The notes below the pieces were generated by a model that worked only from the letters and a program-made list of their open reading frames with translations, had not been told where the DNA came from and did no database searches. Below are positions 13,751-30,345 of a DNA stretch of 64,000 nt, piece after piece. The stretch comes from Tepidanaerobacter syntrophicus (GTDB taxonomy: Bacteria; Bacillota; Thermosediminibacteria; Thermosediminibacterales; Tepidanaerobacteraceae): NCBI RefSeq assembly GCF_001485475.2, contig NZ_DF976999.1, positions 220,001 through 284,000 on the forward strand, written 5' to 3'. Positions within the stretch are counted from its first letter, which is position 1; every line of letters starts with the position of its first letter. Both the position numbers and the translations under genes were made by a program.

Positions 13751-15076
13751 ATGATTCAGTTTAATTTGCCGTTTAAAATCAAAGAGATATGCCTTAAGCT
13801 TAAGTCTGCAGGATTTGAAGCTTATGTTGTGGGGGGAACAATAAGGGATATAATAATAAATAGAGAAATTTCCGACTTTGATATAACGACTAATGCATTC
13901 CCAGATGAAATTAAGTCAGTTTTCCCAAATGCAAAACCTTATGGCGATTTTGGCACTATGCTTATAGTAGAAGATGGCATAAAGGTAGAAATAACCCCAT
14001 ATAGAAACGACGCACCAGGGCGCAAGCCTAACTATACTTTTGGCGGCACTATATATACCGACCTTTCCCGTCGGGACTTTACCATTAATTCTATTGCCTA
14101 TGACCCAATAGAAGATAAGCTTATAGATCCATTTGGCGGAATCGACGATATTGAAAAGAGGGTTATCAGGTGCACCGGTTCAACTAGGAGAATCTGGGAA
14201 GATCCGTTGAGAGCCATGCGCGCAGCAAGATTTCAGGCACAGCTTGGCTTTTCAATCGAAGCTTCTACGCTTTATGCTTTAAAAGCACAATCTTGCGAAC
14301 TGGCTACTGTTTCTTGGGAGCGAATACGAGATGAGCTTTCAAAAATCTTGACGGCGGATTATAATTTCGAAGGTCTAATAACTCTCGTGATAACTGATCT
14401 CATGAACTATATAATACCAGAACTTATGGCGGGCATGGGAGTTATGCATTCAAACAAGCCTGTCGATGTCTTAGAGCATAACCTTATAGCGTGTAAAATA
14501 ATAAGAAACACATTGTCGTTGAGGCTCGCTGCTCTTCTCCATGATATTGCAAAACCCGCAACAGCGGTAAACGGGGAGGATGGCATAAAATTCCCCAAAC
14601 ACCAAATCAAATCAGCAGCTGTTGCAAAGAAAATCCTTCAAAGGCTTCGGTTTGACAACAAAACAATAAAAAAAGTGGTTCTCTTGATTGAAAACCACAT
14701 GTTTTACTATACTAAAGATTCTTCTTTGGCAGATGCAAGAAGGCTTGTGTCAAAAGTGGGCTGGGAAAATATATACGACTTGATAGATCTGCGTGTAGCA
14801 GACAAGATAGCCAGCGGGTTCGATACGATTTATTCTCCCGGACTTAAAAAGCTGATTATGGATCTTGAAGTTATTAAAGAAGAGAACAGCGACTATCAAA
14901 TAAAGGATCTTGCAGTTACCGGTAAAGACATCATGACAGAACTAAAAATGCCAGCAGGTCCGCAAATAGGTGAAATCCTAAATTTTTTGCTGGATAAAGT
15001 TTTGGAAGACCCTTCTTTGAATAACAGGGATACTCTTCTTGAACTTGCAAAAACATATGCAGCTGCTAAATCTTAA
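13751..15076 (+). CDS. cca: CCA tRNA nucleotidyltransferase with HD domain
   Basis: Adds or repairs the 3'-CCA end of tRNAs. 441 residues. The nucleotidyltransferase head has GG at 28-29 (VVGGTIRD) and the metal-binding Asp pair D42/D44 (SDFDITT); the tRNA-binding helical part follows (DPLRAMRAARFQAQLGF). A C-terminal HD phosphohydrolase domain is marked by LAALLHDIAKP and by IENHMFYY. The gene overlaps the convergent birA by 4 bases at their stop codons. Specificity for A only versus C plus A cannot be told from sequence. Confidence 0.92.
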   Translation: MIQFNLPFKIKEICLKLKSAGFEAYVVGGTIRDIIINREISDFDITTNAFPDEIKSVFPNAKPYGDFGTMLIVEDGIKVEITPYRNDAPGRKPNYTFGGTIYTDLSRRDFTINSIAYDPIEDKLIDPFGGIDDIEKRVIRCTGSTRRIWEDPLRAMRAARFQAQLGFSIEASTLYALKAQSCELATVSWERIRDELSKILTADYNFEGLITLVITDLMNYIIPELMAGMGVMHSNKPVDVLEHNLIACKIIRNTLSLRLAALLHDIAKPATAVNGEDGIKFPKHQIKSAAVAKKILQRLRFDNKTIKKVVLLIENHMFYYTKDSSLADARRLVSKVGWENIYDLIDLRVADKIASGFDTIYSPGLKKLIMDLEVIKEENSDYQIKDLAVTGKDIMTELKMPAGPQIGEILNFLLDKVLEDPSLNNRDTLLELAKTYAAAKS

Positions 15077-16080
15077 TCTTCGTTTTGTCTCAAAGATACA
15101 TCTCCGCTTAATACCCTTGCAATATCCCCATCCTGTTTTTTAACTAATAAAGCTCCGAACTCATCAATATCTACGGCAGTTCCTTCAAAGCTGCCGTTTA
15201 TGCTTTTTATGTTTACTTTTTTGCCCAGATTTACACATAATGATTTCCATCTTTCAAGTATCTCGTAAAACCCTTCTGTCTCAGCTTTTTCGTAATAATC
15301 CTCAAGTTTACTGAGAACTGCACACAATAACTTTAATCTATTTATCTTCTGTCCTTTTACTTCCTTCAAGGAGACAGCGATATCCTTTAGCTCTTCGGAA
15401 AAACTGTCGTTATTTGCATTAATCCCAACACCGATTACCACATAATTTACGGCATCTAATTCAGCGCTCATTTCAGTGAGGATGCCGCATACTTTTTTGC
15501 CGTGAATTAAAATGTCATTAGGCCATTTTATGTCTGCTTCAATTTCTATTTCAGACCTAATAGCTTCAGCTACCGCAACTGCCGTCATAATGGTAAGCTT
15601 TGGAGCGTCTTGGGGTAATAAATAAGGTCTTAGAATCACAGAAAGCCAAATTCCGCCCAGCGGCGACTGCCACTGTCTTTCTATACGTCCCCTGCCTCTG
15701 TTTTGTCTTTCCGCTATCACTAATGTTCCCTCAGGCGCCCCTTCTTGAGCTATTTTTTTTGCCGCATTATTAGTTGAGTCGATAAGTGAATAATAATAAA
15801 TTTCGCTCCCCAAAATAGATAAATCGCAGGACGACCATATCTCTTCAGGAAGCAAGAGGTCCGGCGACTCTTCGATACAATAGCCTAAGCGCGATGAGGA
15901 TTTTATTTTATAACCCCACTCTCTTAATGTATTTATTTGCTTCCATACTGCTGTGCGGCTTATACCAAAGTCTTTGCTGATTTTTTCGCCTGAAATATAT
16001 CTTCCTCTATTTTCAAGAAGTAACATTAAAAGTTCATTCGGCTGTGATTTATTAGATACTAATGTAAGATTTTCGTTCAC
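15073..16080 (-). CDS. birA: Biotin-protein ligase / biotin operon repressor
   Basis: Attaches biotin to carboxyl carrier proteins and, in the bifunctional type, represses biotin genes. 335 residues: N-terminal helix-turn-helix (about 15-75; ISKDFGISRTAVWKQINTLREWG region), central ligase domain with the biotinyl-adenylate motif GRGRIERQW (about 128-136) and WPNDILIHGKKVCGIL with the catalytic lysine, and a C-terminal SH3-like domain. The presence of the DNA-binding domain implies regulatory function. No biotin genes are visible here. Confidence 0.92.
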   Translation of the reverse strand: MNENLTLVSNKSQPNELLMLLLENRGRYISGEKISKDFGISRTAVWKQINTLREWGYKIKSSSRLGYCIEESPDLLLPEEIWSSCDLSILGSEIYYYSLIDSTNNAAKKIAQEGAPEGTLVIAERQNRGRGRIERQWQSPLGGIWLSVILRPYLLPQDAPKLTIMTAVAVAEAIRSEIEIEADIKWPNDILIHGKKVCGILTEMSAELDAVNYVVIGVGINANNDSFSEELKDIAVSLKEVKGQKINRLKLLCAVLSKLEDYYEKAETEGFYEILERWKSLCVNLGKKVNIKSINGSFEGTAVDIDEFGALLVKKQDGDIARVLSGDVSLRQNED

Positions 16081-16112
16081 TATTACAGCACCTCTTGTTT
16101 CGGTAATATACT

Positions 16113-16147
16113 ATAATGCCGCCGGAAACTGATTCCGGCGGCATTAT
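16113..16147. other. Strong 15-bp perfect hairpin between osmC-like gene and birA
   Basis: Arms 16113-16127 and 16133-16147 (core ATGCCGCCGGAA) with a 5-base loop. It lies just below the OsmC-family gene and above birA. There is no T-tract on either side, so it may stabilise the 3' end of the upstream transcript or act as a weak terminator. Confidence 0.5.
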
Positions 16148-16159
16148 GAAGAAATTTAA

Positions 16160-16600
16160 CTAAGCTTTAACCTCATATGTCCCAACTACCGGCACTCCTG
16201 CCAAGGTATCTTTTACAGGACAGTGTGTCTCGATAAATTTATACAATCTATCTATATTCTCTTTTGGAGAGTCGGATACTATATGCATTTTATAGCGGAT
16301 TTCCGAAAAACCCTTTCTTACATTAGGATTTTTGCCTGTAAAACCGTCAGGGTCTATGTCGCCTTCCAGCTCCACTGAAAAACCCTTAAGATCTACATTA
16401 AATTTTGGAGCAAAGGAACTTGCTACAATACTCATGCAGCCGCCTAGGGCACATAACAATAATTCAACAGGATTCATAGCTGTGTCTGTGCCGCCATCGC
16501 TTATAGGCTCATCAACTGTAACCTTAAAGTTTCTGGCCGCACATTCCACTAAAGTGCCACTTTTCCAATCAGCTTTTGCTTTTACTGTATTTACCGCCAT
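16160..16600 (-). CDS. OsmC/YhfA-family protein
   Basis: Thiol-dependent peroxidase-fold protein, 146 residues from the chosen start. The start at 16600 (MAVNTVK) is preceded by GGAGG with 8-base spacing; an ATG five codons upstream would place that ribosome site inside the gene. The two conserved cysteines are about C55 (LCALGGCMSI) and C127 (ETHCPV), as in OsmC/Ohr. Role: detoxification of organic peroxides or other electrophiles by family knowledge; exact substrate unknown. It lies 72 bases after typA. Confidence 0.85.
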   Translation of the reverse strand: MAVNTVKAKADWKSGTLVECAARNFKVTVDEPISDGGTDTAMNPVELLLCALGGCMSIVASSFAPKFNVDLKGFSVELEGDIDPDGFTGKNPNVRKGFSEIRYKMHIVSDSPKENIDRLYKFIETHCPVKDTLAGVPVVGTYEVKA

Positions 16601-16672
16601 TGTCGACACCTCCATGTGAAATTTACTACAATTAAATTATACCGCTTTTTCTGCTTATTGTCACGGGTTTAG

Positions 16673-18505
16673 TTAATTTACTTTACTTGTTCTTCCTTTC
16701 ATTTTCTGCCGATCTTGGCGGGAGAGCACTGCCTTTCTCATCCTGAGGCTTTTCGGCGTCACTTCTAGAAGCTCGTCATCTGCGATAAATTCGAGGCACT
16801 TTTCGAGGGTCATTTCTTTTGGAGGAGTCAGTCTTAAAGTCTCTTCAGCAGTTGAAGAACGCAAATTTGTAATATGCTTTTTCTTGCAAACATTGATATC
16901 CAGGTCATCTGGTCTTGAGTTTTCGCCCACTATCATCCCCTCATAGACTTTTGTCTGGGGACCGATAAAAAGCGTTCCTCGCTCCTGGGCGTTGTAAAGA
17001 CCGTAGGTGTTGCTTTCTCCAGTTTCAAAGGCTATAAGGGATCCTCTGTTTCTTGTAGGTATATCGCCTTTGTAGGGAGCAAAGCCTGCAAAAACCGAGT
17101 TGATAATACCTTCACCCTTGGTATCAGTTATGAATTCAGACCGATAGCCTAAAAGACCTCTTGTGGGAATTTCGAATTCAAGCCTTACGGAGTTGCCGCT
17201 GAGATTTTCCATGCTAAGGAGCTGGCCGCGCCGCATACCCATTTTTTCCATAACAATTCCTACATAGGCTTCAGGAACATCTATAACAACAGATTCAATA
17301 GGTTCCATAATCTTGCCGTTTACTTCTTTCATGATTACGGTGGGCTTTGATACCTGAAATTCAAAACCCTCTCGCCTCATGGTCTCTATCAGCACAGAAA
17401 GATGCAGTTCTCCTCTGCCGGAAACCTTGAATTTATCGGGACTATCTGTTTCTTCAACTCTAAGGCTTACATTGCTTCTGGCTTCTTTAAAAAGTCTGTC
17501 TCTCAGGTGCCGAGAAGTAATGTATTCCCCTTCCTTGCCTGCAAAAGGACTATTATTAACACTAAATATCATAGAAAGAGTCGGCTCATCTATATTTACA
17601 TAAGGCACCGGTTCAGGTTTTTCCGCATCTGCAATAGTTTCCCCTATTTCGATATCTTCGATGCCGGTAACAGCTATAATATCTCCGACTGTAGCAGATT
17701 CAGCAGGTTCTCTTTTTAAGCCGTTAAATTCAAAAAGATTGCTTATCTTAACTTTTTCAATCGACCCGTCTTTTTTGCATACCGCATATTCTTGTCCAAC
17801 TATAATCGTGCCGCGAAATACTCTGCCAATAGCGATTCTGCCTACATATTCATCATAATCAAGGGTGGTAATCAGCACCTGGACAGGAGCATCTGGGTCC
17901 CCCACAGGAGCTGGCACATAGTTTATTATAGCTTCAAATAGAGGTTTTAAATCATTTGACGTGTCGTTTAAATCAAGTTTCGCATACCCGTCTCTTGCAG
18001 AAGCATATATTACGGGAAACTCTATCTGTGAGTCATTTGCACCTAAATCAATAAAAAGCTCTAGTATCTCATCTAATACTTGGTTTACCCTGGCATCAGG
18101 TCTATCAATCTTATTTATCACAACAATTGCCGGCAAATCTAGCGCCAGCGCTTTTTTCAGCACAAAACGCGTTTGAGGCATGGGACCTTCAAAAGCATCG
18201 ACCAGCAAAAGAACACCGTCCACCATCTTTAAAACCCGCTCTACCTCTCCGCCAAAATCAGCGTGGCCGGGGGTGTCAATAATATTTATTTTTATTCCGT
18301 TATATGTTACTGCTGTGTTCTTTGCTAAAATAGTTATGCCGCGCTCACGTTCAATTTCGTTTGAGTCCATTATTCGCTCTTCAACTTTTTGGTTCTGGCG
18401 AAATATACCACTTTGTTTTAGCATTCCGTCAACAAGTGTCGTCTTGCCGTGGTCTACGTGAGCTATAATAGCTATATTTCTTATATCATTTCTTTTAGTA
18501 TTCAT
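16673..18505 (-). CDS. typA: Ribosome-associated GTPase TypA/BipA
   Basis: Translational GTPase related to EF-G, needed for growth under stress or cold and for 50S assembly in several bacteria. 610 residues, full length. G1 is [10 protein letters not shown] (about 15-24), G2 [12 protein letters not shown]3 DTPGHADF, G4 NKID. EF-G-like domains and the BipA-specific C-terminal domain ([21 protein letters not shown] region) follow. It starts 24 bases after the metallo-hydrolase gene, in the same direction. Confidence 0.95.
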
Positions 18506-18529
18506 CTTTACTGCATCTCCCTCGGGGAT

Positions 18530-19420
18530 TTAAACATAAAAATACATCTTCCCATCTATTATATCCATACTTATTGATTGTTTTTCAAGAAGAAAGGTTA
18601 AAAAAGCACTCACAGAGGTTATTGTTATAAAGTACTGAGATATATTCATTGGTATATCATACTTTTTTATTATTAGTTCTGTCAAGTCTTCTCTAGTTTG
18701 AGGCTGAGAAAGAATATCGGTTATCAATCCAAGATTCTCATTTATATTGTCAATATTTTTTTGTATTAAAGACTTTGGGTTTTCTACCGGTCCGTCGCAG
18801 TGAGAAATTACGTAGCAATCATAGTTAGATTCAAGTAAAAACTCCAATGTCTTCAAATGCGCTCCCACATCAAAGACAAAGGGCAGAGGATATTTTTCCA
18901 TTTTATCCTCGCTAAAAAAGGCGTCTCCGCAAAAAATAACCCCATCTTCGGTAACGATTCCTATTTGGCCGATTGTATGGCCTTCAAGAGGCACTATCTC
19001 AAATTTCTTGTCGCCAAGTTCAACAAAACCCTCCGTAAGTTCTATGTCTACTGCTGTATCTTTAGCCTTCAAGACTCGCGTGGAAAGTCCCGGCATCGGC
19101 GCAGCGCCATATAATATAATATTTTCCATATTGCTGTTTTCCATAAACACCTTTTCTAGTGGTGATGCTCCTATAATCGAAGCAGGCTGATTTTCTTTTA
19201 TAAAATTATCCGCCCCAAAGTGATCAGGATGTGCATGGGTATTTAAGATATACTTTACCTTAAGTCCGTTTTCTTCCAATGTTTCTAAAAGTTTTCTGCC
19301 TGTTGTATTATCAAGTCCCGTGTCTATCAGGGCGCATAACCCGTTTTTATATCTATAAACACCAACATTGGTAGGTGCCTGGATATAGTAAGTGCGTCCC
19401 CTAAGTTTTGTAAGTTCCAT
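18530..19420 (-). CDS. Metallo-beta-lactamase fold hydrolase
   Basis: 296 residues. The metal-binding motif HAHPDH is at about 61-66, with later His/Asp ligands in EGHTIGQIG and FCGDAFF. The C-terminal 100 residues may be a helical or winged-helix add-on, seen in some thioesterase-type or glyoxalase II-like members. Substrate not recognised. It lies immediately upstream of typA and may be cotranscribed. Confidence 0.8.
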   Translation of the reverse strand: MELTKLRGRTYYIQAPTNVGVYRYKNGLCALIDTGLDNTTGRKLLETLEENGLKVKYILNTHAHPDHFGADNFIKENQPASIIGASPLEKVFMENSNMENIILYGAAPMPGLSTRVLKAKDTAVDIELTEGFVELGDKKFEIVPLEGHTIGQIGIVTEDGVIFCGDAFFSEDKMEKYPLPFVFDVGAHLKTLEFLLESNYDCYVISHCDGPVENPKSLIQKNIDNINENLGLITDILSQPQTREDLTELIIKKYDIPMNISQYFITITSVSAFLTFLLEKQSISMDIIDGKMYFYV

Positions 19421-19510
19421 CTAATTTCCTCCATATTAAAACAATTAACATAAGCACTATTAATATTATACATATGTTTGCCTACTAAAATCAAGAAACT
19501 TGTAAAATGT

Positions 19511-19536
19511 AAAAAACCTGCCAAAAAACAGGCAGG
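19511..19536 (-). terminator. Intrinsic terminator after the 101-residue gene
   Basis: Minus strand: CCTGCC (19536-19531), 8-base loop, GGCAGG (19522-19517), then six T. It ends the transcript of the upstream pcrB/unknown gene group before the metallo-hydrolase gene. Confidence 0.75.
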
Positions 19537-19570
19537 CTTAAAAACCGTTAAAACTAGATAAAAAACTTAA

Positions 19571-19876
19571 TCACAATTGCTCTCCAACTAATTCATAGTA
19601 TTTATTCTTCCAATAATCAAGACGAGCCTTCATATCCTCCACAATCTTAAGGTCCTGGTCGATGTAAAATCCTTGTTGGATACGCTCTTCTTTAGCTTTA
19701 ATCCCTTCTTCATAAGCCCTTAGGGCATCCGCCAACAATTTTTTTGCAAATTCGACGCGTTCAATTTCATGGGGCCAAGTAGAATTTTTGTAATCCCTTA
19801 TAAACACCTTTAAAATATTGAAAAGCATTTCGCCATCTGTATAAAGATTAATATTAAAATCCAGGTTTTGTGACAT
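19571..19876 (-). CDS. Unknown small protein
   Basis: 101 residues, acidic and strongly helical, no signal peptide or membrane segment. Heptad-like spacing in the middle (IERVEFAKKLLADALRAYEE) suggests a coiled coil or helical bundle. A good ribosome site (GGGAGGTTG) precedes the ATG. It follows pcrB by 73 bases and precedes the terminator at 19511-19536. I do not recognise a family. Confidence 0.6.
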   Translation of the reverse strand: MSQNLDFNINLYTDGEMLFNILKVFIRDYKNSTWPHEIERVEFAKKLLADALRAYEEGIKAKEERIQQGFYIDQDLKIVEDMKARLDYWKNKYYELVGEQL

Positions 19877-19949
19877 TTTTCAACCTCCCGGAATGAAGTC
19901 TTGTGAATATATTATTCCACAAAAATTTGCAAAATCCTTCATATATTTT

Positions 19950-20657
19950 TCATAATTCTAGGTTCGTGGATTTTGCCGCTTTCACCGTGTCCTTTAAATT
20001 TTTTATCGAGTCAGTATAAATCATGTTTCCAACTACAATGGTATCCGCAAATTTGCTTGCGATTTCTGCTTTTTTAGCATCATCAATCCCGCCACCATAG
20101 AATATTTTCGCTTTATTAGTTCCTTTTTTGATATGAGAAATAAGTTCAGTATCGCCAAAGGTTCCGCTGTATTCTATGTAAATCAGTGGAAGGGAGAAAA
20201 GGTGCTCTGCGCAATTTGCGTATGCTAAGGCATCTTCTTTTCCTAAAGGGCAAAGTGCTTTACTAAGTTTTGCAGCAGCACAGTCAGGATTGAGTATGAT
20301 ATAACCTTCGGGAAGAATTTCATCCCACTCCATAAGGTCGCCTACAAGTTTGACAGCTTCCTTATGCGCCCCTATAATCCACCGAGGATCATTGGAATTT
20401 AAAACAATGGGTATTAAGTAACCATCAAAGCCAAACGTTATAGCATTTATCGTAGAAACTTCTAAAACCTTAGGCAGTGGATATGGTTTTAATAGTTTGA
20501 AAAGCTTTAGGACATTTTGTCGTGTAATATTTTGAGTCCCTCCTACAACAATAGCATCAGTACCGCTTTCTACAACTTTCTGTACCAACCATTCATCTGC
20601 CGGTTTGTCCGGATCAAGTTTTACAACATGTCGCCAATTTTTCCACTCAGGAAACAC
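19950..20657 (-). CDS. pcrB: PcrB-family heptaprenylglyceryl phosphate synthase
   Basis: Transfers a polyprenyl chain to sn-glycerol 1-phosphate, making an archaeal-type ether lipid precursor. About 236 residues. It matches Bacillus PcrB through EWKNWRHVVKLDPDK, ESGTDAIVVGGT, VLEVSTINAI, IPIVLNSND, EYSGTFGD and IFYGGGIDD. I chose the GTG at 20657: GGGAGG lies 6 bases upstream and the product starts MFPEWK as relatives do; the longer frame to 20681 would bury that site. The gene overlaps the preceding epimerase gene by 11 bases. No AraM (glycerol 1-phosphate dehydrogenase) gene is visible. Confidence 0.88.
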   Translation of the reverse strand: MFPEWKNWRHVVKLDPDKPADEWLVQKVVESGTDAIVVGGTQNITRQNVLKLFKLLKPYPLPKVLEVSTINAITFGFDGYLIPIVLNSNDPRWIIGAHKEAVKLVGDLMEWDEILPEGYIILNPDCAAAKLSKALCPLGKEDALAYANCAEHLFSLPLIYIEYSGTFGDTELISHIKKGTNKAKIFYGGGIDDAKKAEIASKFADTIVVGNMIYTDSIKNLKDTVKAAKSTNLEL

Positions 20658-21462
20658 CAATATCCTCCCTCTTATAATCAATCATTGCAGCTAATCGCGA
20701 AATACTTTTAAATGCCTTTAGCAAAAAAGTATCTGCTCCTGCTTTACTTTCTTCATCTGTCGGATATACCTCAAGGGTTAAGCCTCCATGAAACGTTTTG
20801 GCGGGAAATTTATCCGTAAATTTATTCCAGTTAATTGTGCCACCTCCGGGAAGCCAATGTCTGTCCCGCTTTCCATCATTATCCGAAATATGTAAGGCTA
20901 TTAATTTTTCACCAAAGTCTTCTAATAGGTTTTCCTCGTGATTTAGCACTGCATGAGAAGTATCATAGCAAAGTCCTAGATTTGGCGATTCTATTTCTGA
21001 TAATATAAAAGGTATTCCTCCGGTCATCTTTGTATTTTCCAGCGCAATTTTTACATTATATTCCTCGGCTTTTTTTGTAAGGTAAGATAAGCTTTCGATT
21101 CCATATTTATTTATAGTTGGGATTTTATCTCCTTCTACAATATGCATTACCATAATAGGTATCTCATGTTTTGCGCAATCTTCAAGCCATGCCGTATGCT
21201 CTTTTAGAATTTTTTGTCGAGCGGACTTGCTCTCGCTCCATAAATCAGCGGAATCAGTAAAAGGGGCATGAATGTTTTCCAGATACAGTCCTGCCTCTCT
21301 AACCATTTCCGGCATTGCATTTTTAGGAATACAAGGTGTTCCCTCTTCGTCTTCCCACCATAGTGAAGTTGCCTCAAAACCGGCGCTTTTTATGAGATCA
21401 AGTCTTTCGAATATAGGCATGACAAAACCAAACCATGAAAATATGCCCAATTTTAGTGTCAT
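20647..21462 (-). CDS. Sugar phosphate isomerase/epimerase-like TIM barrel
   Basis: 271 residues, xylose-isomerase-like fold (AP endonuclease 2 superfamily). The metal ligands of this fold are visible as Glu in IALENTK, Asp in CYDTSHA, His in LHISDNDG and Glu in TLEVYP. Individual substrates vary widely in this family. It lies 24 bases after the PLP lyase gene and overlaps pcrB. A role on a methylthio-pentose intermediate is possible from the neighbourhood but unproven. Confidence 0.75.
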   Translation of the reverse strand: MTLKLGIFSWFGFVMPIFERLDLIKSAGFEATSLWWEDEEGTPCIPKNAMPEMVREAGLYLENIHAPFTDSADLWSESKSARQKILKEHTAWLEDCAKHEIPIMVMHIVEGDKIPTINKYGIESLSYLTKKAEEYNVKIALENTKMTGGIPFILSEIESPNLGLCYDTSHAVLNHEENLLEDFGEKLIALHISDNDGKRDRHWLPGGGTINWNKFTDKFPAKTFHGGLTLEVYPTDEESKAGADTFLLKAFKSISRLAAMIDYKREDIGVS

Positions 21463-21486
21463 TGCTTAAAATCTCCTTGCAAAACT

Positions 21487-22674
21487 TTAGTTTAAGGTGT
21501 CAAGAGCTCTTGAAAGGTCGCCAATAATATCTTTTACGTCTTCTATCCCAACCGAAAGTCGAACCATACTTTCGGTAAGTCCAAACTCTCTTAACTTTTC
21601 TTTTGGATAGCCGGCATGAGTCATTGCTGCCGGAAGCTCAATAAGGGTCTCGCAATCTCCAAGACTTACTGCAAGCTTAGCCAATTTCACATTATTCACG
21701 AATTTTTTTGCAGCTTCAAGACCACCTTTTACCTCAAAACTTATCATAGCTCCAAAGCCGCTCATTTGCTCTTTTGCTAAAAGGTGACCCTTCGCGGTTT
21801 CAAGTCCGGGATATATCACAGATTCGATTTTTGGGTGGCCTTTAAGAAACTTTGCAATAGCAATTGCATTGGCCTCGTGTTGGCGCATTCTAAGACCTAG
21901 AGTTTTTAAGCCTCGCAGCATGAGCCAAGCATTAAACGGACTCATGACTCCCCCAAATTCACACATATACTCGAATTTCAAATCCCGTATATAATCTACA
22001 TCTTTGGAAACCGCTACTCCTCCCAGCGCATCACCATGGCCGCAAATATACTTAGTTGCGCTGTGAACTGCCACATCTGCGCCTAGGGAAAGTGGTTTTT
22101 GAAAATACGGAGTCGCAAATGTGTTATCGACTACAACTTTTGCATTGTGAGCCTTCGCTATCTCTGAAACCTTGCGAATATCTATGATGTCAAGGCTCGG
22201 ATTTGCCGGCGTTTCAAAATAGAGGACTTTGGTATTTGCATCTATCGCAGCTTTTACCGCTTCAAGGTCCGTAAAATCTACGCTCTTGCAGTTAATTTTA
22301 TATTTTGTAAGCAATTTATGGGTTGCGGTATAGCTGGAACCATAAAGAACTGTATGGGTAAGTAAGGTGTCGCCCGGGGAAAGAAATGAAAAGAGAACCG
22401 ATGTAATAGCAGACATTCCTGAGGCAAATGCTACAGCGTCTCTGCCATCTTCAAGGCCTGCCATCCTCTTTTCAAACAGCCTTAAAGTAGGGTTATTACC
22501 TCTTGTGTATAAATACCCCTCTTTTCTAAAATTCATTATATCTTCGGCATCTTGCACATCATCAAACACGTACGTAGATGTCATGAATATCGGCGGATTC
22601 AAAGCATTTGCAGGATTATTTTCTTCATTTTTACCATGTATTGAAAGGGTATCAAAACCATAATCGTCGTTCAT
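21487..22674 (-). CDS. Trans-sulfuration family PLP enzyme, probable methionine gamma-lyase
   Basis: 395 residues, Cys/Met metabolism PLP family. The Schiff-base lysine is in HSATKYICGHGD (about residue 206); YTRGNNPT binds the PLP phosphate of the neighbouring subunit. At the position where methionine gamma-lyase has Cys in LYGCT, this protein has Ser (VLYGSSYTATHKLL), and it lacks the YGGTYR pattern of cystathionine lyases and synthases. Methionine gamma-lyase would release methanethiol, ammonia and 2-oxobutyrate; cystathionine gamma-lyase is the alternative. It is third in the methylthioadenosine operon, 41 bases after the phosphorylase gene. Confidence 0.78.
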   Translation of the reverse strand: MNDDYGFDTLSIHGKNEENNPANALNPPIFMTSTYVFDDVQDAEDIMNFRKEGYLYTRGNNPTLRLFEKRMAGLEDGRDAVAFASGMSAITSVLFSFLSPGDTLLTHTVLYGSSYTATHKLLTKYKINCKSVDFTDLEAVKAAIDANTKVLYFETPANPSLDIIDIRKVSEIAKAHNAKVVVDNTFATPYFQKPLSLGADVAVHSATKYICGHGDALGGVAVSKDVDYIRDLKFEYMCEFGGVMSPFNAWLMLRGLKTLGLRMRQHEANAIAIAKFLKGHPKIESVIYPGLETAKGHLLAKEQMSGFGAMISFEVKGGLEAAKKFVNNVKLAKLAVSLGDCETLIELPAAMTHAGYPKEKLREFGLTESMVRLSVGIEDVKDIIGDLSRALDTLN

Positions 22675-22715
22675 TTTTATTCCTCCGTTTTAGTAACAAT
22701 CATTTTTTATTCATA

Positions 22716-23486
22716 TTATAGCTTGATTAAAGAAGCATTACATTTGCAATCATCTTGGGAAAGTTCTTCTTCGGTAAAAACTGTCATAAATATTTCCGAA
22801 ATAAGCGCCTTATTGCTCTCCACTGCACCTTTAATATCATGACCTGCCACATCGCCCTTTATTCCGGTGCACCAATTAGTAACAATTCCTATTGCCTGAT
22901 AGCACATGCCCAGCTCTTTGGCAAGGACCACTTCAGGCACGTTTGTCATACCGACTACATCTGCTCCCAGCATTTTATACATTTTGATTTCGCTGGCGGT
23001 TTCAAATCTCGGGCCTTCAGTGCATGCATAGACTGCATCGCCTTTTATGTTAAGACCCATGGTTTTGGCGTATTCTTTAAACTTTCTTCCAAGATTCGGG
23101 CAATACGGGGCATCCATGGCAACATGGACAACGCCCTTTTCTCCACCTTCATAAAATGTAAGAGGGCGCGTCTTAGTAAAATCAAGGAAATCCTTTAATA
23201 CTACAACATCTGCCGGGGCAAAGTTTTCATTGCATGAACCTACGGCGCAGGTGGTATATATGTATTTTACACCTATGTCTTTTAGTGCCTTGATATTTGC
23301 CCTGTAATTTATTAAATGAGGCGGCACCGAATGTCCCTTCCCATGTCTTGCAAGAAATGCGACTTCTTCGCCACTTTTTGTTTTTACCACATCAATTGTA
23401 ACTGATCCGTATTCGGTTTCGATTTCTCGAGAGCAGGCTTCGCCTATATCGTAAACTCCGGTTCCGCCTATTATTGCTTTTTCCAT
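22716..23486 (-). CDS. S-methyl-5'-thioinosine (6-oxopurine) phosphorylase
   Basis: Phosphorolysis of a methylthio-nucleoside to methylthioribose 1-phosphate and a purine base. 256 residues, MTAP/PNP fold: phosphate-binding GGTGVYD, RHGKGH (HSVPPH follows), CAVGS, and GADVVGMTNVPEVVLA. The base-recognising loop reads VTNWCTG, with Asn where adenine-specific MTAP has TDYD; this matches 6-oxopurine enzymes. The neighbouring deaminase, 22 bases upstream, would supply methylthioinosine. So MTI phosphorylase is preferred over MTA phosphorylase. Confidence 0.82.
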   Translation of the reverse strand: MEKAIIGGTGVYDIGEACSREIETEYGSVTIDVVKTKSGEEVAFLARHGKGHSVPPHLINYRANIKALKDIGVKYIYTTCAVGSCNENFAPADVVVLKDFLDFTKTRPLTFYEGGEKGVVHVAMDAPYCPNLGRKFKEYAKTMGLNIKGDAVYACTEGPRFETASEIKMYKMLGADVVGMTNVPEVVLAKELGMCYQAIGIVTNWCTGIKGDVAGHDIKGAVESNKALISEIFMTVFTEEELSQDDCKCNASLIKL

Positions 23487-23508
23487 ATATTTTCACATCC
23501 CTTCAGCT

Positions 23509-24795
23509 TTAAGCTCCTGTTAGCTTTTGAGCGCAGCGCGCCGTATTGTACATGGCCTTCTCTAAGTCTATTGTTTTAAGTTCATAATTTTCCATAAGTA
23601 TCTTTCCATCTACAATTACAGTGTGTACATCAGATGCTTGGGCGCAGTAGCATACAGCGGATAGAGGGTTGTGTAGAGGACATAAATGAGGCTTATTTAG
23701 GTCGATGAGTATAATATCTGCCTTCTTTCCAACATCTATGCTTCCAAGTTCACCATCGACTCCAAGCGCTTTAGCTCCATTTATTGTTGCCATCTTTATA
23801 GCAGTTTCTGCAGGAATTGATACAGCATCATTGTTTACGCATTTATTTACTATTGATGCAAGGTGAATTTCTTCAAACATATTAAGGTTGTTGTTAGATG
23901 AAGCCCCATCAGTGCCAAGGGATACATTTACTCCGGCTTTTACCATCTTTTCAACAGGCGCAAAACCGCTGGCAAGCTTTAAATTGCTGGTAGGGTTATA
24001 GGCTACGCTTACATTGCATTCTTTAAGTATCTGGATATCGTCGTCATCAACATGGACACAGTGAGCTGCAATGGTGGGTCTTTCAAAAATTCCCAGATCA
24101 TATACATGTTTTATCGGTGTCTTTCGCCATTGTTTTATACTGTCATTTACTTCTTGCCGCGTTTCCGAAAGATGAATATGAATTCCTATCCCCAATTCAT
24201 CCGCCAGTGCCTTTACCTTCTTGAGATAGCGCGGACTGCAGGTATAAGGAGCATGGGGACCGGCAAAAATCTTAATTCTTCCATCCTTGCCGTCAAATTT
24301 TCTATAAAGCTCTTTTGTTTCTTTTAATTGAAATTCCATACCTAACGGTTCATCAGTAAGTCCTCTTGCAATATACGCCCTAACTCCTGTTTCCAGGGCG
24401 ACTTTAATGGTTTCTTCTACAAAAAAATACATATCAAGAAATCCGGTTACGCCGCTTTTTATAAGTTCTGCGATTCCTAGGACAGATGCCCAATAAACGG
24501 CTTCAGCAGTCAGTTTTTTCTCAAGAGGCCATATCTTCTTCGTAAGCCAATCCTGGAGCAGCATATCATCTGCATAATTTCTAAAAAGATTCATTGCAAG
24601 GTGTGTGTGAGTGTTTATAAAGCCCGGCATAACTAACATATTATTTGCATCAATGATTTTATCAGCACCAAAACCTTCGCTAATTTCTCCAACCTGAACA
24701 ATTTTTGAATTCTCTATACCTATATCAACTTTTTTAACTACTGCCTTATCTTTTTCAAAGAGCAAAACCCGGCCATTTTTTATAATTAACTTCAA
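23509..24795 (-). CDS. mtaD: 5-methylthioadenosine / S-adenosylhomocysteine deaminase
   Basis: Amidohydrolase that deaminates methylthioadenosine to methylthioinosine and SAH to S-inosylhomocysteine. 428 residues. Metal ligands: HTHL in GFINTHTHLAMN (about 60-65), His in HIHLSETRQE, His in AAHCVHVDD, Asp in LGTDGASSNNN. The start codon is TTG at 24795, placed 9 bases after GGGGAGG. First gene of the salvage operon that continues through the phosphorylase, C-S lyase and epimerase genes. Confidence 0.9.
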   Translation of the reverse strand: MKLIIKNGRVLLFEKDKAVVKKVDIGIENSKIVQVGEISEGFGADKIIDANNMLVMPGFINTHTHLAMNLFRNYADDMLLQDWLTKKIWPLEKKLTAEAVYWASVLGIAELIKSGVTGFLDMYFFVEETIKVALETGVRAYIARGLTDEPLGMEFQLKETKELYRKFDGKDGRIKIFAGPHAPYTCSPRYLKKVKALADELGIGIHIHLSETRQEVNDSIKQWRKTPIKHVYDLGIFERPTIAAHCVHVDDDDIQILKECNVSVAYNPTSNLKLASGFAPVEKMVKAGVNVSLGTDGASSNNNLNMFEEIHLASIVNKCVNNDAVSIPAETAIKMATINGAKALGVDGELGSIDVGKKADIILIDLNKPHLCPLHNPLSAVCYCAQASDVHTVIVDGKILMENYELKTIDLEKAMYNTARCAQKLTGA

Positions 24796-24901
24796 GATAT
24801 ATTACCTCCCCTTCAACAAATATCTGAATATATCACACTATAAATACAGTTTAACATATTATGCAGGGCAAATAAACAAAATTCCATAAGATATACTTCC
24901 A

Positions 24902-24930
24902 TTGATTTTATCCTTTTATTTTCTTATAAT
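24902..24930 (+). promoter_or_regulatory. Sigma-A promoter of the ABC exporter gene
   Basis: TTGATT (24902-24907), 17-base spacer, TATAAT (24925-24930). The open frame could be extended upstream to the TTG that forms this -35 box, but the promoter inside that extension shows the real start is further down. Confidence 0.75.
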
Positions 24931-24964
24931 GGTTTTAGCTGGAATTATTCTTGAGGGTGAAAAA

Positions 24965-26680
24965 ATGATACGGGAATTTACAAAATATTACAGGGCCCAT
25001 GTGCCGCTATTTTTATTGGACTTCGGCAGTGCTTTTCTTGCATCTCTTCTGGATTTAGTTTTTCCAAAGGTTGTTAATATTGTTATAGATGATCTGCTGC
25101 CTCAGAGAAATATTCAATTGGTAATTAGAATCGGAATATTCCTATTTTTCCTTTATATTATAAGGTATATATTAGGATATATCGTCCATTATTATGGTCA
25201 TACCCTTGGAACCAAAATTGAATATGATATGCGCCAAGACCTTTTTAACCACATACAAAAACTCTCCTTTACTTATTTTGACAATAATAAAACCGGACAT
25301 ATAATGTCCAGGATCGTCAATGACCTAAACGAGATATCGGAACTGGCGCATCACGGTCCCGAAGACTTATTTATCGCATCAGTTACATTGATTGGCACCT
25401 TTTTTATTCTTTTAAATACAAATTGGCAGCTAACACTATTGATTTTTGCCATAATGCCTTTTATGGCTTGGTTTTCTATAAGCAAAAACCAGCAAATGGA
25501 GCAGGCTTTTAGGAATACGCGGCTGAAAATCGCTGACATAAATGCCCAACTAGAAGACAGTATATCGGGCATCAGAGAAGTAAAGGCATTTACAAATGAA
25601 GACTATGAAAAAATAAAATTTCAATTTGGAAATGAAGGTTTTAGACAGGCAAAACAAAAAGCATATAAAACAATGGCCGAGTTCTTTTCGGGAATGGATT
25701 TTCTTTCGAATTTTATAAACCTTGTGGTGCTAATCGCCGGTGGATGGCTTTGCTACAGCAATATGATGACAACAGGCGAGCTGGTGGGTTTTCTCCTTTA
25801 TGTATCTATGTTTTTGCAGCCTCTGCGGCGCATAATGTCTCTGCTTGAGATATATCAAAGCGGTATGGCAGGTTTTAGAAGATTTAGGGAGATTATGGAA
25901 ATTGAACCGGAGATAGTCGATAAACCCGGTGCAATACCGCTGGACAAGGTTAGGGGAAATATAGTTTTTGATAATGTGGCATTTAGCTATGATAATAAGA
26001 CAGAGGTTTTTTCAAATATAAGCTTTAAAATAAACGCCGGAGAAACTGTGGCTTTTGTTGGGCCTTCCGGCGCCGGAAAAACAACGCTAGCAAGCCTTAT
26101 TCCCAGGTTTTACGAAATCGAAGAAGGGGCAATCTACATCGATGGAATAGATATCCGAAATGTCACTCAAAAATCATTAAGACAAAATATAGGTATAGTT
26201 CAACAAAATGTATTTTTGTTTACCGGCACCGTTCGGGATAACATAGCTTATGGAAAGCCGGATGCATCAGATGAAGAAATAATAAAGGCTGCCAAAAAAG
26301 CCAATGCCCATGACTTTATAATGGAACTTGAAAACGGATACGATACCTATATAGGCGAACGGGGGGTTAAGCTTTCCGGCGGTCAAAAACAGCGGCTGGC
26401 TATTGCAAGGATATTTTTGAAAGACCCGCCTATTTTAATCTTAGATGAAGCTACATCTGCTTTGGATAATGAAACTGAACAAATTATTCAAGAGTCATTA
26501 TTTGCACTTTCAAAAAACCGGACCACATTAATAATAGCACATAGACTGGCCACTATAAGGCACGCAGGGCGTATATTTGTTTTGACTAAAGATGGAATAG
26601 TCGAGGAAGGAAGCCATCAGGAACTCATCAGCAAGCAAGGACTATACTATAGGCTTTACAATGCTCAATTCGGAAGTTAA
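24965..26680 (+). CDS. ABC exporter, fused membrane and ATPase domains
   Basis: 571 residues, half-transporter of the MsbA/BmrA multidrug and lipid type, working as a dimer in the membrane. N-terminal six-helix domain (about 10-300), then the ATPase: Walker A GPSGAGKTT, signature LSGGQKQR, Walker B ILILDEATSALD, H-loop IAHRLAT. The start at 24965 (MIREFTKYY) follows GAGGGTG and lies 35 bases after the -10 box. It is a monocistronic unit with its own terminator. The substrate is unknown. Confidence 0.88.
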   Translation: MIREFTKYYRAHVPLFLLDFGSAFLASLLDLVFPKVVNIVIDDLLPQRNIQLVIRIGIFLFFLYIIRYILGYIVHYYGHTLGTKIEYDMRQDLFNHIQKLSFTYFDNNKTGHIMSRIVNDLNEISELAHHGPEDLFIASVTLIGTFFILLNTNWQLTLLIFAIMPFMAWFSISKNQQMEQAFRNTRLKIADINAQLEDSISGIREVKAFTNEDYEKIKFQFGNEGFRQAKQKAYKTMAEFFSGMDFLSNFINLVVLIAGGWLCYSNMMTTGELVGFLLYVSMFLQPLRRIMSLLEIYQSGMAGFRRFREIMEIEPEIVDKPGAIPLDKVRGNIVFDNVAFSYDNKTEVFSNISFKINAGETVAFVGPSGAGKTTLASLIPRFYEIEEGAIYIDGIDIRNVTQKSLRQNIGIVQQNVFLFTGTVRDNIAYGKPDASDEEIIKAAKKANAHDFIMELENGYDTYIGERGVKLSGGQKQRLAIARIFLKDPPILILDEATSALDNETEQIIQESLFALSKNRTTLIIAHRLATIRHAGRIFVLTKDGIVEEGSHQELISKQGLYYRLYNAQFGS

Positions 26681-26689
26681 ATTAAAGGT

Positions 26690-26730
26690 GCCTGCGCTAA
26701 TAATTGCGCAGGCTCAGTTTATTATTTCTA
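26690..26730 (+). terminator. Intrinsic terminator after the ABC exporter gene
   Basis: 8-bp GC-rich stem GCCTGCGC (26690-26697) with GCGCAGGC (26706-26713), 8-base loop, then a T-rich run (TTTATTATTTC). Confidence 0.75.
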
Positions 26731-26794
26731 ATAGTATAATTTTGTCAGTTATATTATTATCATAAATGATATTGGCGCATCTGATTCAAGGATT

Positions 26795-28138
26795 TCAGGA
26801 ATTCTGAGCAAGTTGTTCTTGTATGATTTTAACCGCTTCTTCCAGCTCTAGAAGTTTTTGAACACCTGACTTCATGTCTTTTAGGGAGACCTTATTGTTT
26901 TCTGTTTCTTCTTCGCCTATAAATATCACGTAAGGGATTTTAAGGTTGTTGGCATAACTTAGTTTTTTGCTTATTTTTACATCTTCAAAGTGTATTTCGG
27001 AGACAATGCCATTTGCTCTGAGGGTATTTGCAACTTTTATAGCATTCAGGTTGAATTTTTCTTCCATGGGTATCACTAAAACCTTTGTAAAAGTTATTGG
27101 AGAATCTTCTTTAAGAAGGCCCGCTTCTTTTAGTTGATAAAAAAGGCGAGTAAGTCCTATTGAAACTCCTACTCCCGGCAGCTTTTGAGTTGTATAATAT
27201 TCTGCCAGATTCTCATATCTGCCTCCTGAACAGACACTGCCAATTTCCGGATAATCATCAAGAAAGGTTTCATATACCGTGCCGGTGTAATAGTCCAGCC
27301 CCCTTGCAATAGTCAAGTCAATGGAGTAATTTGCAGGCGGAACGCCAAATGCTTCAGCATATTCTGTGACCTTTTCCAGTTCCTCTATACCTTCTTTAAA
27401 CATTGCAGATGTAAGATTAAGTGCTTTAAGCGATGCAAGTTTTTCCTCATTTGTTCCTTTTATTTTGACAAATTTTAATATCTCATGCGATGTATCATTC
27501 GAAAGTCCTAGTTTCGAAAGTTCGCTGATAACACCCTTTTCTCCTATTTTTTCCAGTTTATCAACTGCCCTTAAAACTTCAGTTGTATCTTCTATATTTA
27601 ACGAGCCAAAAAAGCCGTTTAAGATTTTTCTATTGTTTATCCGTATTGTAAAATTACCAAAGCCCAGATTTTTAAACGTGGAGTATATTATGCTTACAAT
27701 CTCAGCATCATAAATTACGCTTAATCTTCCATTGCCTATAATATCTACATCGCATTGATAAAATTCTCTAAATCTTCCCCTCTGGCTCTTTTCTCCTCTG
27801 TAAACCTTGCCGATATGGTATCTTCTAAACGGAAAATTTAGTTCTGAAAAATGCTGTGCCACATACCTTGCAAGAGGCACTGTAAGATCAAACCTTAATG
27901 CCATATCTGTATCGCCTTTGGTAAACCGATATATCTGCTTCTCAGTTTCTCCTCCGCCCTTTGCAAGAAGTATTTCGGACCTTTCGATAAGAGGGGTTTC
28001 AATCGGCACAAAACCGTAATTTTCATATGTTTTTCTTATCACATCTTTAATCTCGTTAAAAAGTATTTGATCTTGCGGTAAAAGTTCTAAAAAGCCCGGT
28101 AATGTTGCAGGCTTTACAATATCTTTGCTCAAAATCAT
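26795..28138 (-). CDS. hisS: Histidyl-tRNA synthetase, archaeal/eukaryal-like type
   Basis: Charges tRNA-His. 447 residues, class II aminoacyl-tRNA synthetase. Motif 2 region RRYHIGKVYRGEKSQRGRFREFYQCDVD and the histidine loop ARGLDYYTGTVYE (partly quoted) identify HisRS; the C-terminal anticodon-binding domain follows. Motif 1/2 contains MALRFDLTVPLARYVA instead of the LRPEGTA form of the common bacterial enzyme, a pattern of archaeal and eukaryal HisRS and of a minority of Clostridia. It overlaps the preceding phosphatase-like gene by 4 bases. Whether the genome has a second hisS cannot be seen. Confidence 0.88.
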   Translation of the reverse strand: MILSKDIVKPATLPGFLELLPQDQILFNEIKDVIRKTYENYGFVPIETPLIERSEILLAKGGGETEKQIYRFTKGDTDMALRFDLTVPLARYVAQHFSELNFPFRRYHIGKVYRGEKSQRGRFREFYQCDVDIIGNGRLSVIYDAEIVSIIYSTFKNLGFGNFTIRINNRKILNGFFGSLNIEDTTEVLRAVDKLEKIGEKGVISELSKLGLSNDTSHEILKFVKIKGTNEEKLASLKALNLTSAMFKEGIEELEKVTEYAEAFGVPPANYSIDLTIARGLDYYTGTVYETFLDDYPEIGSVCSGGRYENLAEYYTTQKLPGVGVSIGLTRLFYQLKEAGLLKEDSPITFTKVLVIPMEEKFNLNAIKVANTLRANGIVSEIHFEDVKISKKLSYANNLKIPYVIFIGEEETENNKVSLKDMKSGVQKLLELEEAVKIIQEQLAQNS

Positions 28139-30345
28139 ACCTCCGTTCCATTTTTGGTCATTTGTTTGTTGTTCTCTATTTCGTCAATGCACATCATAAT
28201 TAAGGGTATCGTAAGCGGTATCATCATAGTAGCAGCTGCCACAACTCCTGAATCATTAAAGGCAAGGGCAGCAAGCGTAGCTATAATGCCTGCTATAAAT
28301 CCAAAATAAAGATAAACATGTTTTCTAAATATTTCTTTCAAGATGCCCACAGGCCTTGCAAAAAGTATGCATAAAGTAGCCACAGTGCCAAAAAGCACCC
28401 AGACCCAGGATGAATACCTTATGAGTTTGTAGTTCATCGATAGCTTTCTTGCGAATATCTGAAACAAGGCAAAAAAGCTATTGTGCTTTATAAGCTCAGT
28501 GGTCTGTCCGATATGAGATTGGGCATTAGAAGACGGCCGCATGCCATCATATATAAATAAGGCTAAAATAGATACTACTAAAAGGCAAATAAGTACTAAA
28601 AAGTCTTTTTTTGTAAGTTTTCCCCTTGTATTTAAGATAACTGATACACCAAAACCGATAAACGCTGCCATCGAGCCTCCTACATTTGTCCCTAATGAAG
28701 GTGCCATAAGTGTAAGCAGGATTACTAAGTAAAAAACCATGCTTAATATCTTTATAATTTTCTGCTTGCCCCCTGCCCGGTCCATAATAGCAGCGATGCC
28801 GATTATGGCTGCGCCTATCAAAAATCCCATATATTCATTGCCGATTCCATAAAATCTTGCTCCTACTATAGGATCATATCCTAAAATCGAAACCCTCATT
28901 AGAGGATTTTCTAAAAATGTATCTATAAGTATTATAAGCACCGGTGGAAGGCAAGTTGCTATAAAAATCTTTAAGTTGTCTTTTAAGAAATAAAAAACTA
29001 GTAAGCTTACTAAAAGTACGCTGCCTATAAGGCATAAAACAAACTTAGGTACGCTCCAGGGGCTTGCCAGAGGTAAAAGCAGCAGCATTGTCGGGGTTAT
29101 TAGAACTCCTATTAACAGGAATTTTACATAGGTTAAATATTTTTCAAAATACTTTATAGATATTAGAAATAGTATAAGGACTCCTATAATGAATCCGATG
29201 TATGTCTTTACAACCGATGAACGTATTTTGTAGTTAAAAATTACAATTCTATTAAGCTCTTCTAAATATCCTAATGGATTTTCTATGTTTTTTGCAGTCA
29301 ATTTATGTCCTGTCATAGAAGCATCCTTTGGAATACCAAAATAGTCAAGAATACATGCTGCAATATCTGTGTTAGTTACAATTCCATCTCTTTTTGTAGT
29401 GGCCGACGTTAAGGTTCCGCAAGGGATATTTTTATTTAAAGCTATAATCGGAGTAAGCCTTTTACCGGCTGATGAATCTTCTGTCGAGGGGAAGGGGACA
29501 ACCAGCAAGAATAGGGTATTATCATCAATTTGGGAAAACAGTTTTCCAATAAGTTTATCTGTCTGACTGAAAATTTCAGACTTTATTCCATTATATCTAT
29601 CCTCGGCAATATCCATATATTTGTTTAGTCTTGACATATCCCCGGGTTGAATTACGATAAAATCAGCCTTATCCTTTATATCGCAAAAAGCCGTATACAA
29701 TTTATCATAATCACTTCGTATCCCGTAAGGACTCATAGGATCATGTGCAAGCAAAGTCTGATTTACAACTCCAAAATCTGTTATCCCATTTTCATCTGTG
29801 GTTATAAGTGATGCATTTATTTTTATATCATCAAAGTCTGTGTCTTCATTCCCTATTATTGCTGTCTTATAACCATTTTCATGAAGCAGTGTTCCCAAAA
29901 GCGCAGGTTTTGCAATGCGGTTTAATTTTTTATTCTGTAAATTAAGTTCTGTAATTCCCACATTTGCGATGTTTTCCAAACTCATATCATTGCCTGTATT
30001 TCGCTTATAAACCACATTTATGGGTTCATTATGAAATAGATCATAATAACCTCCTGCATAAGCTGCATAGTTTGCACTTGTAGCATACGCCCCTGCTCCG
30101 ATAGTCGCGTATGAGTTAGCAGATGTAAAAGAGCTGGCGGAGTTTACATTCATAAGGCCAAGTGCACCGTTTTTAAGTAAATACTCAATATTTTTCCCGC
30201 CATATGTAACCATTTCTTCATAATTTGTGTCATCAAGAATAACCATTATGACCTTTTTCTCTGAAATTGGTTTTGCATATCCATAATGTGGTATAATCAT
30301 TACAAACATTATAAGTATCATAAAAATTACGATGCCTTTTTTCAT
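28135..30345 (-). CDS. Membrane protein with extracytoplasmic phosphatase-like domain
   Basis: 736 residues. A signal peptide or first helix (about 5-24) is followed by a roughly 350-residue outside domain with alkaline-phosphatase-superfamily features: VIMVILDDTNYEEM near the N-terminus, SFTSANSYATIGAGAYA (possible nucleophile Ser/Thr region) and IVTNTDIAACILDYFGIPKDASMTGH near its end. The C-terminal half has about nine to ten membrane helices. It may modify an envelope polymer or act as a lipid-linked phosphatase or transferase. Promoter at 30388-30416; translationally coupled with hisS, which is unusual. Confidence 0.7.
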   Translation of the reverse strand: MKKGIVIFMILIMFVMIIPHYGYAKPISEKKVIMVILDDTNYEEMVTYGGKNIEYLLKNGALGLMNVNSASSFTSANSYATIGAGAYATSANYAAYAGGYYDLFHNEPINVVYKRNTGNDMSLENIANVGITELNLQNKKLNRIAKPALLGTLLHENGYKTAIIGNEDTDFDDIKINASLITTDENGITDFGVVNQTLLAHDPMSPYGIRSDYDKLYTAFCDIKDKADFIVIQPGDMSRLNKYMDIAEDRYNGIKSEIFSQTDKLIGKLFSQIDDNTLFLLVVPFPSTEDSSAGKRLTPIIALNKNIPCGTLTSATTKRDGIVTNTDIAACILDYFGIPKDASMTGHKLTAKNIENPLGYLEELNRIVIFNYKIRSSVVKTYIGFIIGVLILFLISIKYFEKYLTYVKFLLIGVLITPTMLLLLPLASPWSVPKFVLCLIGSVLLVSLLVFYFLKDNLKIFIATCLPPVLIILIDTFLENPLMRVSILGYDPIVGARFYGIGNEYMGFLIGAAIIGIAAIMDRAGGKQKIIKILSMVFYLVILLTLMAPSLGTNVGGSMAAFIGFGVSVILNTRGKLTKKDFLVLICLLVVSILALFIYDGMRPSSNAQSHIGQTTELIKHNSFFALFQIFARKLSMNYKLIRYSSWVWVLFGTVATLCILFARPVGILKEIFRKHVYLYFGFIAGIIATLAALAFNDSGVVAAATMMIPLTIPLIMMCIDEIENNKQMTKNGTEV

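Follow-up and report, generated by a model that had tools for sequence, protein, structure and literature searches.

The window, a stretch of 64,000 nucleotides of the genome of Tepidanaerobacter syntrophicus, contains four open reading frames (ORFs) which, according to the ORF list, run head to tail on the minus strand from 24795 to 20647. The genome comprises 2.43 Mb in 9 contigs and is 99.95% complete. Family scans of the four ORFs identified an amidohydrolase, a member of the phosphorylase superfamily, a pyridoxal phosphate (PLP) enzyme of the Cys/Met family and a xylose-isomerase-like TIM barrel. The first gene (23509..24795) starts with TTG and encodes a 428 amino acid protein resembling deaminases of 5'-methylthioadenosine (MTA), S-adenosylhomocysteine (SAH) and 5'-deoxyadenosine (PF01979, 261 bits). 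It is followed by genes for a 256 amino acid phosphorylase of the methylthioadenosine phosphorylase (MTAP) family with an asparagine (Asn204) in the base site (22716..23486), a 395 amino acid PLP enzyme from a dedicated clade (21487..22674; PF01053, 481 bits) and a protein resembling TIM-barrel sugar epimerases and isomerases (20647..21462; PF01261, 99.5 bits). A preliminary description, made from the sequence alone, had placed four head-to-tail genes at 20647-24795, and this was borne out to the exact coordinates on the minus strand. We propose that the deaminase, phosphorylase and PLP genes encode the initial half, and in addition a side branch, of a dihydroxyacetone phosphate (DHAP) shunt that handles by-products of S-adenosylmethionine (SAM) and starts with deamination, a reading that we consider rather likely.

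The four ORFs are separated by gaps of only 22, 41 and 24 bases, and a stretch resembling a ribosome-binding site precedes each of them as judged by eye. A scan of the minus strand for terminators found none between the four genes and one weak terminator-like match within the phosphorylase gene. No regulatory RNA reached the gathering score in an Rfam scan of positions 15000-30000 of the window, and promoter-like sites occurred at chance level (25 observed, 25.8 expected).

Among solved structures, the deaminase matches the MTA/SAH deaminase 4f0r in the PDB with an E value of 9e-86. Three alignments (A1-A3) of 14, 14 and 10 chosen rows were used for residue comparisons. Residues H63, H65, H208, H245 and D296 of the deaminase, which we take to be the metal ligands of the amidohydrolase, are invariant in 10 aligned rows. 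None of the NCBIfam models among the 25 matches listed scored above its cut-off, with 328.7 bits against 779 for NF012037 and 387.3 bits against 522 for NF005557. Judged by these putative ligands and its nearest solved relatives, the product of 23509..24795 fits an MTA/SAH deaminase.

In MTAP, the aspartates of a TDYD motif hold the adenine ring. The phosphorylase of the window has T203-N204-W205-C206 where the Sulfolobus tokodaii (S. tokodaii) and human MTAP have TDYD, and asparagine occupies this base-site position in all 33 aligned phosphorylase rows, one of which (L035) is only 28% identical. This comparison is based on the human and archaeal MTAP; the proven methylthioinosine phosphorylase (MTIP) of Pseudomonas aeruginosa (3ozb) enters through its structural Z score and not through a residue alignment. 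The protein scored below the cut-offs of both the MTAP model (TIGR01694, 245.6 bits, cut-off 274.85) and, narrowly, the MTIP model (NF006599, 216.7 bits, cut-off 223). In a structure search, its predicted model (pLDDT, the predicted local distance difference test, 83.7) matched MTAPs with Z scores of 29-32, 3ozb with 28.7 and purine nucleoside phosphorylases (PNPs) with at most 24.6. Both sequence and predicted model place the protein in the MTAP family. With the TIGR01694 cut-off missed and TNWC in place of TDYD, it would not be classed as an MTAP proper, and its base pocket looks suited to hypoxanthine. We regard it as probably a phosphorylase for 5'-methylthioinosine and 5'-deoxyinosine. 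The replacement of TDYD by TNWCTG in the base loop was thus a sound observation of the preliminary description, even if the MTAP and MTIP cut-offs are missed, and the order that it proposed, deamination first and then a phosphorylase with a hypoxanthine-type base pocket, was judged right.

An asparagine at the base site is PNP-like, and the same two enzymes might serve general purine nucleoside salvage, from adenosine via inosine to hypoxanthine. The MTIP of Methanocaldococcus jannaschii accepts several nucleosides according to PMC6302742, which would fit such a role. We nevertheless consider general salvage very improbable: the genome has a distinct PNP-family gene (C7:161839), the fold of the phosphorylase is closer to MTAP than to PNP, and its gene clusters repeatedly with mtnA.

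The preliminary description had noted the absence of mtnA, which is true of the window only. It had suggested looking for mtnA elsewhere in the genome, and the gene is present on contig C7 (C7:409178; TIGR00512, 468.5 bits, cut-off 279), with which a second scan agrees. A class II aldolase is encoded on contig C9 (C9:164495; NF005302, 340.4 bits, cut-off 264). With these two genes in the genome, the key inference of the preliminary description was judged wrong. That description had also named a complete classical mtn pathway elsewhere as the finding that would speak against its route. This finding was obtained in half: mtnA is present, and the genome-wide searches for pathway genes covered mtnA and class II aldolases.

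In relatives, these genes are found together. With the phosphorylase as the sole query, 30 loci were retrieved, several of which end at contig ends and for which genome completeness is not given; mtnA was nearby in 16 of them, the PLP gene in 14, and a deaminase and a class II aldolase in 13 each. Of the named relatives, Tepidanaerobacter sp. EBM-38 (L007) was the nearest found, with a phosphorylase of 77% identity; this locus and L008 overlap with genomes G001 and G008 of the separate genome set. Thermoanaerobacter wiegelii (L017) has the order deaminase, aldolase, mtnA, phosphorylase and PLP gene; in L014, L024 and L028 this set is joined by genes for a protein resembling zinc alcohol dehydrogenases and for an energy-coupling factor (ECF) transporter. 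The C9 aldolase is 63% identical to the T. wiegelii copy and 57-62% identical to the copies of L028, L019 and L025, and the clusters of Thermoanaerobacter, Caldanaerobacter and Tissierella contain aldolases with 57-63% identity to it. All nine genomes of the sister family (f2) have, judged by coordinates, a phosphorylase homologue with 38-42% identity less than 1.5 kb away from a class II aldolase. The linkage of the phosphorylase with the PLP gene, the deaminase, mtnA and the aldolase is more than expected by chance.

What is observed are the genes, their order and families, the base-site residue, the presence of mtnA and the aldolase, and the clustering in relatives; from these we infer all reactions of the pathway as well as the part of the C9 aldolase in it. 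MTA, which arises in polyamine synthesis, and 5'-deoxyadenosine, which radical SAM enzymes release, would be deaminated to methylthioinosine and 5'-deoxyinosine. The phosphorylase would split these, giving hypoxanthine together with either methylthioribose 1-phosphate or 5-deoxyribose 1-phosphate. MtnA (C7) would isomerise this sugar phosphate for cleavage by the class II aldolase (C9) to DHAP and either (methylthio)acetaldehyde or acetaldehyde, and reduction of the aldehyde would fall to an alcohol dehydrogenase. For the step that follows mtnA, the known class II aldolase is the simplest assignment, not an epimerase. The PLP enzyme would act on the sulfur amino-acid end, and the TIM-barrel protein would be a mere neighbour.

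Several points weigh against this assignment. The operon, mtnA and the aldolase are located on three separate contigs, and both the phosphorylase and the deaminase score below every curated equivalog cut-off among the matches listed. The genes around the C9 aldolase (a DeoR regulator, a 2-hydroxyacid dehydrogenase and a xylose-isomerase-like protein) resemble a sugar-catabolism cluster, and the aldolase may therefore serve another sugar. Finally, a PF00148 search of the own genome gave no match and hence no candidate for a methylthio-alkane reductase; sulfur would therefore not be recovered via the methylthio-alkane reductase route, and this ethylene-forming branch was rejected.

The proposed pathway would share a phosphorylase, MtnA and a class II aldolase, as well as the products DHAP and an aldehyde, with the DHAP shunt of Rhodospirillum, Bacillus thuringiensis and Escherichia coli ATCC 25922 (MtnP or Pfs/MtnK, MtnA and Ald2). 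It differs in that the deaminase comes first, in the Asn-type phosphorylase and in the extra PLP enzyme. The two variants listed in PMC10986504 are Pfs/MtnK, a nucleosidase with a kinase, and MtnP. Deamination also precedes phosphorolysis and MtnA in M. jannaschii, for which PMC6302742 describes a deaminase, an MTI phosphorylase and MtnA that act on both the methylthioinosine and the 5'-deoxyinosine products and are used promiscuously for 5'-deoxyadenosine. M. jannaschii differs in having an S-inosylhomocysteine hydrolase, for which a PF05221 search of the own genome gave no match. A further difference is the class II aldolase, which in relatives is part of the gene cluster. The MTA deaminase and MTIP of P. 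aeruginosa share the first two steps and the MTAP fold, but belong to another lineage and genomic context, and the MTIP model is narrowly missed here. No description of this cluster was found in the literature searched, which did not reach most subscription journals. Within that literature, the parts are known; what seems new is how the genes are arranged, the PLP clade, and that the two SAH enzymes discussed below are missing together.

The preliminary description had called the third gene product a methionine-gamma-lyase-like enzyme. The best PDB matches of the protein are methionine gamma-lyases, which belong to the same PLP superfamily, and the enzyme recurs in the cluster as a clade of its own; it is not a canonical methionine gamma-lyase. 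The protein scored 469.7 bits with TIGR01328, below the cut-off of 549.7, and a true methionine gamma-lyase is encoded elsewhere in the genome (C5:147358, 577.7 bits). The clade members compared carry the motifs YTRGNNPT, YGS[ST] and YMCE[FL], compared to YTRLGNPT, YGCT and YLKDF in the true lyase; the fragment L012 is readable only at the first two motif places and was omitted from the tree. The active-site marks of methionine gamma-lyase are presumably Cys116 and Lys240-Asp241. At these sites the window protein and its clade have Ser and Cys-Glu, and L074 has Cys and Lys-Asp. In the tree, 18 clade members are separated from 6 other family members with a support of 1.0, and identity is 61-98% inside the clade and 36-49% between the clade and the others. 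On this sequence evidence the enzyme is a member of a separate, dedicated clade.

Three further strong members of the PLP family are encoded in the genome. One other Cys/Met PLP enzyme (L076 and L070 on the own contig C9, L071 and L072) lies in a sugar-catabolism-like cluster with an aldolase, dehydrogenases and a sugar-kinase-like protein, the last labelled by eye. In the same-genus relatives L056 and L057, a dicarboxylate symporter-family gene, tested in L057 by its PF00375 match, lies between the phosphorylase and the PLP gene; it is not present in the window.

The lack of methionine gamma-lyase marks would also agree with a role of the PLP enzyme as an O-acyl-homoserine sulfhydrylase, which would use methanethiol to form methionine again, and with the cluster as a Rhodospirillum-like sulfur salvage. 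The enzyme shares the superfamily of O-acetylhomoserine sulfhydrylases (TIGR01326, 394.9 bits), and the use of methanethiol by a sulfhydrylase is described in PMC6302742. We regard this as quite unlikely, because the negative PF00148 search leaves no nitrogenase-like reductase in the genome to free methanethiol, and because the enzyme is at least 61% identical within its clade and at most 49% identical to the six family members from outside it that were compared.

The fourth gene is linked to a different neighbour. The pcrB gene, which encodes a heptaprenylglyceryl-phosphate synthase outside the pathway (19950..20681, minus strand; PF01884, 236 bits; NF003197, 277.7 bits, cut-off 260), lies downstream in a frame that overlaps the end of the TIM-barrel gene, with a likely start near 20658 as judged by eye. 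It is followed by a gene for a 101 amino acid protein without family match (19571..19876, minus strand; homologues in L056, L057 and L064) and by a terminator-like hairpin of 9 pairs and a T-run (19539-19514, minus strand) which ends the gene run. The TIM-barrel gene adjoins pcrB in six genomes of the own family (G001, G002, G004, G006, G008 and G012), and in G006 this occurs without a PLP gene beside it.

The preliminary description had suggested that this protein, as an epimerase, could act on the methylthio-pentose in an anaerobic route not yet described. Its gene does adjoin the PLP gene in the window and in G001, G002, G004, G008 and G012, and the candidate metal-site residues E142, D167, H191 and E231, assigned a role by analogy, are invariant. 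As these likely ligands are kept, the protein is probably an active sugar epimerase or isomerase. Its predicted model (pLDDT 93.5) matches mostly sugar 3-epimerases among the best of the 50 PDB matches listed, with identities of 11-23%, so that its substrate is not indicated. A match with an E value of at most 0.001 was found in 23 of 41 genomes and exceeded 100 bits in 15 of these; in G005 and G010 the gene lies among other genes, and in six genomes of the sister family (G013-G017 and G020) a homologue with 34-41% identity lies near unrelated genes. Only 2 of the 30 phosphorylase loci, both from the own family, contain a homologue, and a linkage to the PLP gene was seen in the own family only. 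On this linkage the epimerase was rejected as a pathway enzyme; with mtnA and an aldolase present in the genome, we hold the epimerase route to be extremely unlikely. The TIM-barrel protein is probably not a member of the pathway despite its location, and tracks pcrB rather than the salvage genes.

The fate of SAH provides a further view on the cluster. Neither SAH hydrolase (PF05221) nor MTA/SAH nucleosidase (TIGR01704) was detected in the own genome, in searches that did not include LuxS, and its only two PF01048 proteins are a PNP-like protein and the phosphorylase of the window. In the own family (f1, G000-G012), SAH hydrolase was absent from all 13 genomes and a nucleosidase above cut-off was present in one (G003), which lacks the window-type phosphorylase; ten of the 13 have this phosphorylase with more than 350 bits. 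All seven family genomes that are at least 92% complete (G000, G001, G002, G004, G005, G007 and G011) lack both enzymes and have the phosphorylase, and G006 (88% complete) lacks all three. The nucleosidase is present in 9/9 genomes of the sister family. Of the 30 genomes with the phosphorylase, 8 have a nucleosidase above cut-off, 3 have a hydrolase and 19 have neither. Both enzymes are missing in 12 of 14 genomes with the PLP gene near and in 7 of 16 without it (Fisher p 0.026), a value that ignores kinship and incomplete genomes and counts L030, which ends at the phosphorylase, as having no PLP gene nearby; other loci also end early.

These distributions suggest that SAH hydrolase and MTA/SAH nucleosidase are dispensable here because the deaminase, the phosphorylase and the PLP enzyme may stand in for them. 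The cluster might then also, or mainly, be a route of SAH disposal, an unlikely reading but one compatible with the DHAP shunt. SAH would be deaminated to S-inosylhomocysteine, the Asn-type phosphorylase would remove hypoxanthine and the PLP enzyme would cut the homocysteine end; we put forward this third way of SAH disposal, by which the cluster would handle all three SAM by-products, with considerable doubt. Equally doubtful is the variant in which either the phosphorylase or another enzyme takes off hypoxanthine and members of the PLP clade break the C-S bond in the homocysteine moiety. In five of 12 hydrolase-bearing relatives at the phylum level (G029, G033, G036, G037 and G038), SAH hydrolase lies beside a phosphorylase homologue or its mtnA, which indicates that an SAH enzyme can occupy the place next to the phosphorylase. 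According to PMC10978960, M. jannaschii deaminates SAH and then uses S-inosylhomocysteine hydrolase, and some organisms must metabolise S-inosylhomocysteine via another pathway.

Disposal of SAH by the cluster would, however, require a putative room for homocysteine in the phosphorylase. Moreover, L013 and L019 have the PLP gene plus a nucleosidase above cut-off (the L019 copy in two pieces), and seven genomes without both enzymes have no PLP gene near, although it may be elsewhere. Weak nucleosidase-like matches of 23-46 bits, below the cut-off, also occur in several of the 30 genomes. Frames of about 238-254 amino acids with such weak matches (32-45 bits) were seen in G051 (G051:C1:1677530), G058, G062, G048, G066 and others, and might represent a further nucleoside enzyme.

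Some related clusters contain additional genes. An ECF transporter (ATPase and T component) lies within the mtnA/phosphorylase cluster of L014, L024, L028 and L042, and partly L030. In L028 and L042 it has an S component of the QueT family in Pfam; the cargo of this transporter may be nucleoside by-products and not precursors of queuosine. On the own contig C7 (L038, 5543-10038), genes for an ADP-ribosylglycohydrolase, a pseudouridine-5'-phosphate glycosidase-like protein (PF04227), a second MtnA/eIF2B-like isomerase (TIGR00511, 205.8 bits, cut-off 314.1) and a phosphotransferase system (PTS) permease lie in a row as a putative ribose-phosphate module. In G006 (L073, 844-4554), a run of genes reminiscent of a compact DHAP shunt encodes a 247 amino acid protein, an MtnA-like isomerase, an aldolase and a protein labelled by eye as iron alcohol dehydrogenase-like.

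Every cell has to clear MTA, 5'-deoxyadenosine and SAH, because these compounds block SAM enzymes. That the two known SAH-cleaving enzymes are missing together poses a concrete, testable question on the gap named in PMC10978960. If true, the deaminase-first DHAP shunt would be a third variant beside the two listed in PMC10986504, and it would explain how by-products are cleared in these thermophilic anaerobes.

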